This document shows positions 26 through 12,936 of a DNA stretch of 22,517 nucleotides, in pieces (position 1 is the stretch's first letter; each line of letters opens with the position of its first letter). This DNA is from a virus: positions 1 through 22,517 of IMG/VR virus record IMGVR_UViG_3300046009_012131, one strand, 5' to 3'. Made by a program: the position numbers and the translations under genes. The notes beneath the pieces were generated by a model. It was not told the DNA's origin and made no database searches. It saw nothing but the letters and a program-made list of their open reading frames with translations.

Positions 26-388
26 GGGGATGTCATAGAATAGATTCATAGAGTAATGGTAGTTATGCAGGTGTCGGATTGTCAAATACCCGACTAATAA
101 ATTAGATGGTAAAAGTCGTAAATGGCAAAACAAATGAAGTAGGAACTCGTGAAGATTTAGTAGCGGCCCTAAAAGCAATTGGAGCTAAAACTCCAGAGTT
201 AGTTTAATAAGAGAAACTAATCAAAAAAATTCTCCGACTGTATCACACAGACCAAATGTGAAAACCATTTTGTTAGATTTTGGGTTAAAACCAACTATTT
301 TGTAAGTTTAGAAAAACTTTCTAAGCCTGTGAATGAATAATTATTGTTAACTAGGGAAGACACGATGGGCAGTACATCGTCATCTCCA
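26..388 (+). ncRNA. ssrA: Transfer-messenger RNA (tmRNA), phage-encoded
   Basis: This is a tmRNA of normal length (363 nt), which rescues stalled ribosomes and tags the nascent peptide. The 5' GGGGATG (26-32) pairs with 3' CATCTCC (381-387) as a 7-bp acceptor stem. It includes the G3-U70 wobble (G28/T385) and discriminator A388, the alanine identity elements. A T-arm-like hairpin (362-367/375-380, 7-nt loop) abuts the acceptor strand exactly as in tRNA. A long interrupted H2 helix is visible: 53-57/340-344, 60-66/333-339 and 67-71/326-330. A PK1-like stem is 73-77/90-94 and another hairpin is 308-314/318-324. The segment AGTCGTAAATGGCAAAAC (114-131) resembles the resume region of Bacteroidetes tmRNAs. 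The tag reading frame then runs to tandem stops TAATAA (205-210). The tag is much longer than usual and ends PELV instead of ALAA. CCA is not encoded (CTA follows). It is followed by a terminator. Confidence 0.87.
118..210 (+). other. tmRNA tag reading frame with tandem stop codons
   Basis: Counting from GTA at 118 (directly after AGTC, as in E. coli), the frame reads V-N-G-K-T-N-E-V-G-T and continues through REDLVAALKAIGA to KTPELV, then TAA TAA. If the resume codon is GGC at 124, as in Bacteroidetes tags that begin GETN or GENN, the tag is 27 codons. With GTA it is 29. Both candidates have an A four bases upstream, so sequence alone does not decide. The beginning (GKTN) resembles host tags, but the usual YALAA end is replaced by a long helical-looking extension ending in LV. 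Confidence 0.65.
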
Positions 389-2125: not shown

Positions 2126-3070
2126 ATGAGTGTAATAGGATATTTCGGTGGTAAGAGTTCAAGCGTCTTCCATGATTTTATAAATAAAAAAATACCAAAA
2201 AATGGGATTAAAACATACTTAGAACCATTTTCTGGTTCGATGGGAACTTATATGGATGATGATTCATTGGTATTTGATACAGTTATCTATAATGATAAAA
2301 ATCGTCACCAAGTAAACCTTTATAAGTGTTGTGCACAACCAGAAGAGTTTTTGAAATATTTAGAAAAATTAAAACAAACACTTTTATATACATCTGAGTT
2401 GGATCCTGTCAAAAAATGGGACTTTTACAAAAAAGTATACCATGAATATACTAAAAATGATTTTTTAGATGATATGAATTTTGAGATTGGTGATTTTGAG
2501 AAGGCTGCTATTTACGCATTCTTAATTACATCAAGTTTTTCGAGTGTGTATCCGAGAGGTGGTGGTTTTTCTGGTTATAAAAAAGATAAAGATAGACTTA
2601 AATTAGAAGTTCTTATTGATAAGTTAAAGAAGAATAAGTACACTAAGAAGTTACAATCAATCACAGACTATACAAACATTGATTTTGAAGAGTTAATTAC
2701 AAAATATGATAGTGAGGATACTTATATCTATTTAGATCCACCATATGCAAGATTTAATGAAGATAAAGGTGATGATGATGGTAAAAGATTATTTTGGTAT
2801 GGTTCTGATAAAGAAGGTGTATTTGGACCAGCTTCACATAGAAGACTTTTAGAATTGATTAAGAAATCAGAAGCTAGATGGTCATTATCATATTACTATT
2901 TTCCACTTTTAGAAGAGTTATTACCAAGAGATAAATACTTTTGGACAGAGAAAGAAGTATTTAGAAGTTCCGCTCAAGGTGGAAACAATTCTGATTTAAA
3001 ATCTGAACAAGCTAAAGGTGTTGAGTTGTTGATTATGAATTATGACCCAAAAACTGGAATTAAATTATAA
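2126..3070 (+). CDS. DNA N6-adenine methyltransferase (Dam / D12 class)
   Basis: 314 residues with the D12-class motif order. The SAM-binding segment is GYFGGKSS (5-12) and EPFSGSMG (33-40). YNDKNRHQVNLY (55-66) follows, and the catalytic motif IV is DPPY at 204-207 in YIYLDPPYARF. The enzyme transfers a methyl group from SAM to adenine N6 in DNA. Phages use these to evade host restriction, or as orphan modification enzymes. No restriction endonuclease partner is next to it, so an orphan role is likely. The target site cannot be read from the sequence. The length is slightly above E. coli Dam (278), mainly from an insert around 210-235 (EDKGDDDGKRLFWYGSDKEG). Its stop overlaps the next start (TAATG), so translation is probably coupled. 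Confidence 0.85.
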   Translation: MSVIGYFGGKSSSVFHDFINKKIPKNGIKTYLEPFSGSMGTYMDDDSLVFDTVIYNDKNRHQVNLYKCCAQPEEFLKYLEKLKQTLLYTSELDPVKKWDFYKKVYHEYTKNDFLDDMNFEIGDFEKAAIYAFLITSSFSSVYPRGGGFSGYKKDKDRLKLEVLIDKLKKNKYTKKLQSITDYTNIDFEELITKYDSEDTYIYLDPPYARFNEDKGDDDGKRLFWYGSDKEGVFGPASHRRLLELIKKSEARWSLSYYYFPLLEELLPRDKYFWTEKEVFRSSAQGGNNSDLKSEQAKGVELLIMNYDPKTGIKL

Positions 3071-10736: not shown

Positions 10737-11117
10737 ATGAGAGATAATTTTAATTTCATAGATTTTTATATAGGATATCCTGGTCATCCAAGATTCAGAA
10801 CAGCTGAGATTATAGAGGATGATGTTGTAAGAGTTATTGTTCAAAAGTATGAAATGATAATATTTACTAATAAAGGTGATTTATTATGTGATACTAATTT
10901 TGGAGCTGATTTAGTTAAACTTTTACATGAGACTAGACTCTCTGCTGAATCTATAGAAGGTGAAATAGTTTCACAAATAGTTGAATATATCCCGGAATTA
11001 GAAGGAGTTGAATATAAAGTTGAAGTTGCTTTCTATGAAGATCCTAATAGACACCAAGAATATATGGAAATATACTTTGAGTTAGCTGGTTATGAGGTTT
11101 ATGCTTCGGTTATTTAA
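10737..11117 (+). CDS. Baseplate wedge protein (T4 gp25-like)
   Basis: 126 residues against 132 for T4 gp25. The protein has the GPW/gp25 family layout: an N-terminal strand region, IIEDDVVRVIVQKYEMIIFTNKGDLLCDTNFGADLVKLLHE (25-65; the I-LLT-x-GER-x-x-x-x-x-G-L-x-x-L core), then helix SIEGEIVSQIVEYIPELEGVEYKVEV (74-99). gp25 is a conserved part of the baseplate wedge and of related contractile injection systems, where it joins wedge to sheath. It follows the gp44-like gene by 32 nt in the same direction. Its stop shares TTAA with the end of a convergent gene. Confidence 0.87.
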   Translation: MRDNFNFIDFYIGYPGHPRFRTAEIIEDDVVRVIVQKYEMIIFTNKGDLLCDTNFGADLVKLLHETRLSAESIEGEIVSQIVEYIPELEGVEYKVEVAFYEDPNRHQEYMEIYFELAGYEVYASVI

Positions 11118-11734
11118 TTTTGATTATTGATTGGGCCACTTGCTGTGTATATGTATTTATAATCCCTTTTTATTTTAACTTTTAAGCTTTCGGCTGTTGT
11201 TACTACATCTTCTAAACATTCAGAGTCCGCTCCTCCAACTATTGTTACTTCTTTTCCTTCTAAATCTTTTAATAGTTCATATAATTTAATTGGACAGTGA
11301 AACCAAACATGATTATTATTAATAAAAGTTATTATAGTTCCTTCTTTAGTTTTGAATATATCACCTTTTTTCAGACTTTTTTCTTCTTCTTTTTTACTTA
11401 TTTCTTCATAGACTTCTTTTGAAAGAATCTTTTTATAGAAATCAGCATCTACGTCATAGTTATATCTTTTTTCTATTAAATCTTTTTGATTTGGAAAATG
11501 ATAAAGGTCTTTATGTATTGGAATATCAGGATCTTCTTCGTAAAGATAATCTTTGTCTACTTTTCCTCCATCGACATGATTATCCCAAATTTGATAAACA
11601 CTTTGAAAGTTTTTACAATATTTTTTTAACTCATTGAGATATATTTCAGAAAAGAATTTACTGAATGATTCTTGAACATCAACTATTATTAATGTGTCGT
11701 TATTGTAACTTTCAAATGTCTTAAGGTATTTCAT
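11114..11734 (-). CDS. Isochorismatase-like cysteine hydrolase with N-terminal FESY tag
   Basis: 206 residues. Residues 1-10 (MKYLKTFESY) are the tag shared with the two downstream genes. From residue 14 the protein follows the isochorismatase/nicotinamidase fold: TLIIVDVQESF (14-24) with Asp19, IEKRYNYDVDADF (87-99) with Lys89, and VTIVGGADSECLEDVVTTAESLKVKIKRD (163-191) with Cys173. Asp-Lys-Cys is the family's catalytic triad. Members hydrolyse isochorismate, nicotinamide or other amides; the substrate here is unknown. Nicotinamidase-type action would touch NAD metabolism, but that is speculation. A hydrophilic insert (105-145) separates Lys from Cys. The TATATAG box ends 4 nt before the ATG and overlaps the stop of the upstream gene. 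Confidence 0.72.
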   Translation of the reverse strand: MKYLKTFESYNNDTLIIVDVQESFSKFFSEIYLNELKKYCKNFQSVYQIWDNHVDGGKVDKDYLYEEDPDIPIHKDLYHFPNQKDLIEKRYNYDVDADFYKKILSKEVYEEISKKEEEKSLKKGDIFKTKEGTIITFINNNHVWFHCPIKLYELLKDLEGKEVTIVGGADSECLEDVVTTAESLKVKIKRDYKYIYTASGPINNQN

Positions 11735-11738
11735 ATTA

Positions 11739-11750
11739 CTATATATTTAA
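11739..11750 (-). promoter_or_regulatory. TATATAG box abutting the start codon
   Basis: The minus strand reads TTAAATATATAG, then TAAT, then ATG (11734). The TAA stop of the upstream gene (11749-11747) is built into the box. Confidence 0.5.
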
Positions 11751-12223
11751 TTATCTCTATAATTTTTTTTATAACCCCATGTATAATCAAATTTTACAGG
11801 TGTTAAATTACCTATTCTATCTGTGTAATTAGCAACAACACTTGAATAAGGTATATCGGCTCTTTCTAAATGTCTATTTATATCAATATGAAAATTATCA
11901 AGTTTGTTAAAGTCTGACTCATCTATAAATGCTGTTATAATCATTTTATATCTCTCAGATTCTATTATAGATTCTTTTTTATCATAATCTATACCTTTCT
12001 TTAATTTATTTTCAGATAATTCAAATATTACCAATTCTTCATGATTTGAGTCTGGGTAAGGATATAAAAATGAAAAATAAACCATTTCTAATAATCCGTT
12101 TATGTTATTATGATCCATTGATGAAATGATAATATCCCTTAATAAATATGGATCAGTTTTAAATATATCTTCTAACTCTCTTTCGATAGTATTAAATGAC
12201 TCAAATAGATTTAGATATTTCAT
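11747..12223 (-). CDS. FESF-tagged hypothetical protein
   Basis: 158 residues. The N-terminus MKYLNLFESF (1-10) is the shared tag; the remainder is not recognised. It is helical up to residue 55 (RELEDIFKTDPYLLRDIIISSM), then alternating strands and helices with an acidic bias, ending in an aromatic-rich tail (FDYTWGYKKNYRDN). No catalytic motif stands out. It sits between two other tagged genes in the same direction, with a TATATAG box 4 nt before its ATG and a terminator of the preceding gene just upstream. Confidence 0.65.
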   Translation of the reverse strand: MKYLNLFESFNTIERELEDIFKTDPYLLRDIIISSMDHNNINGLLEMVYFSFLYPYPDSNHEELVIFELSENKLKKGIDYDKKESIIESERYKMIITAFIDESDFNKLDNFHIDINRHLERADIPYSSVVANYTDRIGNLTPVKFDYTWGYKKNYRDN

Positions 12224-12285: not shown

Positions 12286-12936
12286 TTAAGCTGGGAGTTC
12301 TTCATTTCCTTCTTTTTCTTCCTCTTCTTCCTCTTCTTCCTGAACTTGTGGTTGAGCTTGTGGCTGAGCTTGTGGCTGAGCTTGTGGCTGAGCTTGTGGT
12401 TGAGCTTGTGGTTGAGCTTGTGGTTGAGCTTGTGGCTGAGCTTGTGGCTGAGCTTGTGGCTGAGCTTGTCCTTGTGGTTCTTCAAATTCATTTGTTGTTG
12501 GAGCTTCTTGAGTAGCTTGAGGAACTTCTTGTGTACTTTGAGGAACTTCTTGAGTTTGTGCCTGTGGCATCTCTTCTGTGTTCTGAGTAGATCCAGGTTG
12601 AACTTGTGTTTGAGTTTGTGCTTGTGACTGACCTGTTAAAGCTCCTGTAGGTATTTTATCTAAGTCTAGACCTGCAGTTGTGATGTATTGTAAAAGTAAC
12701 TCAGCAATCTCTACGTCACCGAAGAATTGTCTTAGGTTTCTACCAGTTGTATCCTTTTCTTTCTTTACGTAAGAATTTATAAGTGATTGTGGTATGTCAA
12801 CCATAGATCTAACTTTATAAAGGTCACCAACCTGTAATACAGACTCGTTTATTGCTTGTTTAAATATCTCTGGATTAACAGATGCCAATTTCTTCTTTAC
12901 ACCTCTGTAAGATTCAAATGTTCTAATATACTTCAT
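12286..12936 (-). CDS. FESY-tagged protein with AQPQ tandem repeats and acidic tail
   Basis: 216 residues. The N-terminus MKYIRTFESY (1-10) is the shared tag. Residues 11-100 form a compact helical domain (LASVNPEIFKQAINESVLQVG ... RNLRQFFGDVEIAELLLQYITTAG). From about 105 the protein is disordered: Gln/Thr/Pro/Ala-rich with QEVPQ(S/A)TQE repeats, then ten AQPQ repeats, then a run of eight Glu and a short end. The domain is not recognised. Long disordered acidic tails of this kind occur in scaffold, internal-head or DNA-mimic proteins, but nothing decides among these. It has its own box (12960-12970) and terminator (12241-12270). Confidence 0.7.
   Translation of the reverse strand: MKYIRTFESYRGVKKKLASVNPEIFKQAINESVLQVGDLYKVRSMVDIPQSLINSYVKKEKDTTGRNLRQFFGDVEIAELLLQYITTAGLDLDKIPTGALTGQSQAQTQTQVQPGSTQNTEEMPQAQTQEVPQSTQEVPQATQEAPTTNEFEEPQGQAQPQAQPQAQPQAQPQAQPQAQPQAQPQAQPQAQPQAQPQVQEEEEEEEEKEGNEELPA
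12351..12470. repeat. Ten-copy 12-bp tandem repeat encoding AQPQ
   Basis: Ten consecutive units read GNTGAGCTTGTG on the plus strand, where N is C or T. The variable base is the third position of a Gln codon (CAG or CAA). In coding order the units run CAG x3, CAA x3, CAG x3, CAA x1, a six-unit (72-bp) higher-order pattern. All differences are synonymous. Confidence 0.95.

Follow-up and report, generated by a model that had tools for sequence, protein, structure and literature searches.

A long tmRNA tag in a lineage of Bacteroidota huge phages and its candidate reader, a phage-encoded ClpC-ClpP protease

In 2020, a survey of huge phages (Al-Shayeb et al., PMC7162821) reported tmRNA and SmpB as present in its genome set and predicted Bacteroidetes hosts for phages of over 634 kb. 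Mycobacteriophages, Bacillus phage G and marine Melnitz-like phages also carry a tmRNA in the phage genome; in the accessible text of the corresponding reports (PMC4131195, PMC9004378) the tmRNA alone is described, with no family that joins a phage SmpB to long tags. The usual assumption is that phage tmRNAs feed the host's own proteases. The bacterium Mesoplasma florum possesses a 27-residue tag, AANKNEENTNEVPTFMLNAGQANYAFA (PMC9097571), which is read by its own Lon protease (PMC8138137). Jumbo phages encode ClpP, ClpA or ClpX (Iyer et al. 2021, PMC7824862), genes that were interpreted there as serving host takeover or virion assembly, with no tie to tmRNA tags.

The stretch of viral DNA analysed here, 22,517 nucleotides at its full length and referred to as the window, carries a one-piece, ssrA-like tmRNA gene at positions 26–391 of the forward strand. 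The gene, supported by covariation in seven helices and by homologues, belongs to a lineage of Bacteroidota huge phages. With blastn, the same element was detected in the genomes of two huge phages, LR745206 (634 kb, 76%) and LR756502 (642 kb, 70%), and pattern scans detected it in more than 50 IMG/VR contigs; the 2020 survey contains this same phage group, with genomes of 634 and 642 kb. Full boundaries were read by eye for approximately ten loci, the window included. The acceptor 5′ strand GGGGATG (26–32), which supplies the G3 of the G3-U70 pair, is matched by the 3′ strand CATCTCC at the start of 381–391, where the discriminator A388 is followed by CTA in place of CCA; CCA is not encoded. 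Enclosed by the acceptor are the two strands of the H2 helix (45–72 and 325–358), PK1 stem 1 with its TCGG/CCGA core (73–94), and the PK2 pseudoknot (238–261), in which the TCAC/GTGA pairing covaries and the CTGT/ACAG pairing is read from the sequence.

The initial annotation had recognized a tmRNA by its acceptor stem with G3-U70, its H2 helix and its resume region, and covariation bears this out. In an alignment of 21 sequences, with 500 shuffles as the control, 97.7% of alignment cells were paired as compared to 88.5% in the shuffles, and 20 of 44 pairs had changed on both sides, as compared to 10.3; the observed covariation score was reached by none of the 500 shuffles and was lost when the pairing partners were slid. 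The covarying parts are the acceptor with G3-U70, H2, PK1 stem 1, PK2 and the T-stem. At the G3-U70 position of this alanine-type acceptor, 19 of the 20 rows with letters on both sides have G-U, the exception being an A-U in a misaligned row (L003), and H2 (helices 2–4), which closes the tRNA-like domain where a tRNA would have its anticodon arm, has 93–100% of its cells paired, with ten pairs changed on both sides. Among the pseudoknots, only PK2 and stem 1 of PK1 are backed by the alignment. Folding of the window as a single sequence was not significant (z −0.81), and the structural case therefore rests on covariation.

The T-arm (362–380) is atypical. Its 6-bp stem, ACGATG/CATCGT, covaries and closes the loop GGCAGTA, a type that characterizes the window's clade and departs from the canonical TTCRANY, a typical though perhaps not a defining trait of tmRNAs, in possessing neither TTC nor A58; the tmRNAs of sister phages bear T-loops such as TTCGAAA or TTCGATT. 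Neither ARAGORN nor Rfam RF00023 at its gathering cut-off returned a match in the window, while ARAGORN called the tmRNAs of relatives L036, L270, L273 and L275. The non-canonical T-arm of the window's clade likely accounts for the ARAGORN failure. The match of another relative, L021, to RF00023 was set aside as sole proof, since its 32.8 bits are no higher than some tRNA-sized matches in bacterial genomes, which reach 33.4 bits. Silence from both tools, a T-loop devoid of TTC and A58 and the L021 score would all fit a decayed or non-functional relic; we consider a relic hardly tenable, however, given the compensatory changes in the acceptor, H2, PK2 and T-stem, an ORF unbroken in 40 distinct copies, the retention of promoter and terminator, and the retention of SmpB in relatives. 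As the T-stem covaries, the altered T-arm is not a mark of decay, and alignment with the tmRNAs of related phages led us to reject a pseudogene on the strength of compensatory changes and an intact ORF. The analysis indicates that huge-phage tmRNA counts obtained from ARAGORN and Rfam are too low.

Judged by its flanking sequence, the tmRNA gene looks like a transcription unit of its own in a Bacteroidota-type host. The −7 promoter element of the Bacteroidota has the consensus TAnnTTTG. This motif occurs upstream of the tmRNA in 29 of 36 relatives, as compared to a mean of 2.0 in shuffles, and the window possesses TACATTTA; downstream, a hairpin (397–416) and T-run make up an intrinsic terminator (397–422). 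The ORF directly downstream of the tmRNA (409–963) has a match to phrog_1017 (unknown function, E 1e-40); its product resembles a YbiA/NADAR-type protein, with its start likely at the ATG at 443, past the terminator. An endonuclease VII/homing-endonuclease-like ORF (1164–2075; phrog_1035, E 3.5e-9) follows further on, ahead of a DNA methyltransferase (2126–3070). Further into the window, the reverse strand (12286–12936) encodes a protein with a long PQAQ tandem repeat, the N-terminus of which, MKYIRTFESY, recurs in similar form in the ORFs at 11114–11734 (MKYLKTFESY) and 11747–12223 (MKYLNLFESF).

The tag ORF occupies 124–207. Directly downstream of TAAAT (119–123), it starts at the resume codon GGC124 and runs for 27 codons (124–204) to a TAA at 205–207, with a second TAA at 208–210. 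In the 21-sequence alignment, TAAA(C/T) precedes this GGC, and no row departs from the T at −5 or the A at −4; the search pattern behind that alignment imposed positions −3 to −1 and left −5 and −4 free. The regular expression used for the larger tag set fixed −4 to −1, and counts from that set add only the T at −5. In Escherichia coli, the choice of resume codon is made by A86, the base at −4 (PMC2481249). ARAGORN starts the tag of relative L275 at the homologous GGC and predicts GNTNEVGSVEDLVFALRNNILKANRLAVA followed by a stop, and host-type Bacteroidota tmRNAs place TAAAT or TAATT before their GGC. From the invariant −5 and −4 bases, the E. coli precedent, the L275 call and the host-type context, we infer the tag to be GKTNEVGTREDLVAALKAIGAKTPELV. 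The initial annotation had left the length at 27 or 29 codons; the 27-codon reading from GGC124 stands, and the 29-codon reading from GTA118 falls because the A at its −4 position is not conserved, relatives having C or T there. A short tag in another frame likewise met with no support. The tag does end in PELV, without -AA, as had been proposed.

An in-frame tag of 27–30 codons is kept at 59 loci (40 distinct sequences), and its ORF is never broken. Residues E5, E10, V13 and L16 are invariant among the 40 distinct sequences, a set in which the search patterns predetermined part of the first codons. Between nearest neighbours, differences fall preferentially at third codon positions (154 versus 73 and 62), and the pooled pN/pS of the tag frame is 0.64, falling to 0.47 over codons 8–16, versus 0.83 and 0.89 in the other two frames. 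By these sequence measures, purifying selection on the tag peptide is moderate, not strong. Part of the tag is constrained by RNA structure, since a hairpin (179–196), whose sequence differs by clade subgroup, lies in the 3′ part of the ORF beside an H5-like hairpin (199–220; TTAGTTT/AAACTAA) that contains both stop codons. The amphipathic helix suspected in the tag extension found no backing: the hydrophobic moment of GTREDLVAALKAIG is not above that of its shuffles (fraction at or above the observed value, 0.53).

These data bear on the view that ribosome release is what counts, with a loosely constrained tag peptide in an ORF that stays open because the RNA must fold and must offer a stop codon. 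Tag function was not critical in phage propagation assays in E. coli (PMC2481249), the C-terminal part of the phage tag varies and holds covarying hairpins, and pN/pS is only moderately low. A merely open frame would not be expected to conserve its length, an inner segment with four invariant residues and a third-position bias, and we regard release as the sole function as rather improbable.

Among the 40 distinct tags, nine end in ELV, eight in ATV, three in ELA and the others variously, with -AA at the end of a single one; 14 ARAGORN-called tags from Bacteroidota and Balneolota are 9–10 residues long and end in -AA in every case. We sought distant tmRNAs using a tag-blind pattern for the 3′ part of the molecule and a covariance model built from that pattern. 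Several of the distant phage tmRNAs so found are called by ARAGORN, with tags such as AKVELSTWTVEDALAFVDGEYAVAA (L036), ANNVVELSTMTFEDVMALVSNEEMAVAA (L270) and ANVELSTWTFEDAMAFAEGELEMAA (L273). Tags of 25–30 residues are present in other SmpB-bearing phages as well, some of them still ending in -AVAA or -MAA; sister phage tags of similar length end in -AVAA, -EMAA or -ALAA, and those of intermediate relatives in -AVA, -SVA, -AFA, -ATA or -VAA. As distant phages with long tags keep -AA, long tags are either older than the loss of -AA or separate from it. The survival of -AVAA and -MAA on other long phage tags makes it probable that the -AA ending eroded in the window's clade. L036, L270 and L273, along with L274, form a second long-tag family (25–28 residues) with the core ELSTWTxEDAxAFV and a retained -AA end. 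Further tag types, AKSKTTATQVEELEIA, ALANILPVKEVAFA and VVSEKIDVLDALDSTESVQDGELVLAV, appear in the ARAGORN tmRNAs L276, L277 and L278, their tag starts being ARAGORN predictions.

Two other fates for the tag can be weighed against these endings. It could be a weakened yet working host Clp degron, in which -ELV, -ATV and -LVA ends would slow turnover and the phage would tune degradation without redirecting it. The endings are indeed hydrophobic, some lie near known variants (-LVA, -AVA, -ALA, -VAA), and, for the E. coli tag, an engineered AAV variant undergoes slower degradation (PMC9382460). The commonest endings, ELV and ATV, nevertheless have neither of the terminal alanines. The tag also exceeds host tags threefold in length, and its conserved inner part would be superfluous for host ClpX; we therefore judge a weakened host degron to be unlikely. 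Alternatively, the tag may be no degron at all and may sort or protect the proteins that bear it, for example by directing them to a phage compartment or partner protein. Host tags have no conserved inner segment of this sort, and the non-AA ending would suit such a role, but in sister phages, tags of comparable length retain -AVAA, -EMAA or -ALAA ends, and the receptor or compartment is here purely putative; we find a sorting or protecting signal decidedly improbable. Protection, which the initial annotation had raised, is the least favoured reading of the tag, since degron-like ends (-AVAA, -EMAA, -ALAA or -AVA) persist on the tags of related phages.

Candidate partner proteins are encoded by the large relatives. 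SmpB is present in both complete named genomes (E 7e-53 and 8e-50) and in 7 of 37 tmRNA-bearing records, the remaining records being mostly smaller fragments; an SmpB relative is encoded by 212 viral stretches. The phage SmpBs keep the KGKK motif and mostly keep DKR. A tree was built from 144 SmpB sequences, 68 of them viral, and 40 of the viral sequences group together (support 89/87); a single phage clade was rejected, as the remaining viral sequences fall elsewhere in the tree with weak support. ClpP is encoded in 9 of 16 and in 11 of 15 records of two record sets. The ClpP of record W02 scores 406.5 bits against the cut-off of 361 of the NCBIfam ClpP equivalog PRK14514, and two further copies tested lie below this cut-off and score far higher with ClpP models than with ClpP-like head-maturation models. 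In the L083-group records W01, W02, G083 and G076, each phage encodes two or three paralogous ClpPs, including a shorter, divergent copy (about 92–94 bits to PF00574) that is perhaps a head-maturation protease.

Both named genomes, like the majority of large records, encode a ClpC-like unfoldase of approximately 700 residues. Its best solved relative is Bacillus subtilis ClpC, with which it aligns from residue 145 on; the N-domain is missing, and a VGF loop is aligned with that of the B. subtilis protein. The VGF loop of ClpC has a role in ClpP docking. In the record of L067, the ClpC-like gene (L241, 1129–2301, reverse-complement strand) is seemingly interrupted by an intein, an intein-like sequence ending in YYTNGLLSHN abutting the ClpC P-loop region TQLAKVL. 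A search for the Lon domain Lon_C in eight large records found none, and Lon, the protease of the Mesoplasma case, was rejected as the phage protease on that basis.

The window's 22.5 kb fragment shows no SmpB, ClpP or ClpC-like gene; G002 (L004, 134.6 kb), a relative with a PELV-type tag, encodes ClpP. The phage ClpP and ClpC genes show no linkage to the tmRNA; their products may serve to take over the host or to mature the virion. Clp genes are present as well in a phage whose tag ends degron-like (G037, tag end ASVA), so the match between tag and protease stays putative. A strict tie of the tag ending to the T-loop type or to ClpC was rejected as partial only: L002, L005, L013, L045 and L068 possess a non-canonical T-loop and a tag ending in -A.

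We propose that a Bacteroidota huge phage makes its own ribosome-rescue system. The tmRNA would be transcribed as its own unit and charged with alanine, and together with phage SmpB, which the window's own phage is presumed to encode along with the Clp partners, it would free stalled ribosomes; the unfinished protein would gain Ala plus GKTNEVGTREDLVAALKAIGAKTPELV. The tag, which is longer than host tags, conserved in its inner segment and hydrophobic at its end, would be no host-type ClpXP degron and would be read mainly by the phage ClpC-like unfoldase and phage ClpP. In this way it would have shed its dependence on host ClpXP, a change resembling the switch of the Mesoplasma tag to Lon. Direction to a different protease, among the options first suggested, gains some indirect support from the presence of ClpP and a ClpC-like unfoldase in the same phages, and we consider it close to evenly balanced that phage tmRNA-SmpB rescue yields a tag read mainly by phage ClpC-ClpP and not by host ClpXP. 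That rescue and degradation form a private, host-independent line, with the rebuilt T-arm fitted to the phage's own SmpB and a new class of long degron read by phage ClpC-ClpP and not at all by host ClpXP, is possible but doubtful.

Throughout the phage lineage, a long tag persists that has lost the host-type ending; it is accompanied by SmpB, and most large genomes add parts of a Clp protease. Searches of an open-access library turned up no report of the long phage tags, of their missing -AA ending, of the T-arm alteration, or of phage Clp being connected with tmRNA. If a phage protease reads the tag, viruses would possess an autonomous translation quality-control line, and the tag and its protease would constitute a new degron-protease pair usable as an orthogonal tool.

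The phage RNA is similar to the one-piece tmRNA of the Bacteroidota (RF00023; tags GENNYALAA, GETNYALAA) in its G3-U70 acceptor, long H2, PK1 (stem 1) and PK2, TAAAT-GGC resume context and H5-like stop hairpin. Unlike that tmRNA, it encodes a tag of 27–30 codons without -AA and with a hairpin inside it, possesses a non-canonical T-loop on a 6-bp stem, and lies below the limits of Rfam and ARAGORN. The 2020 survey (PMC7162821) relied on ARAGORN, which misses the window's clade, and in its accessible text describes neither the long tags and their endings nor a link to phage Clp. The Mesoplasma tag ends in NYAFA and is read by Lon, whereas the phage tags end in ELV or ATV and their genomes offer a ClpC-like unfoldase and ClpP, with no Lon found. 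The Mesoplasma florum tag and its Lon are the nearest functional precedent, shared features being the 27-residue length, the host-unlike ending and, putatively for the phage, a dedicated reader protease.
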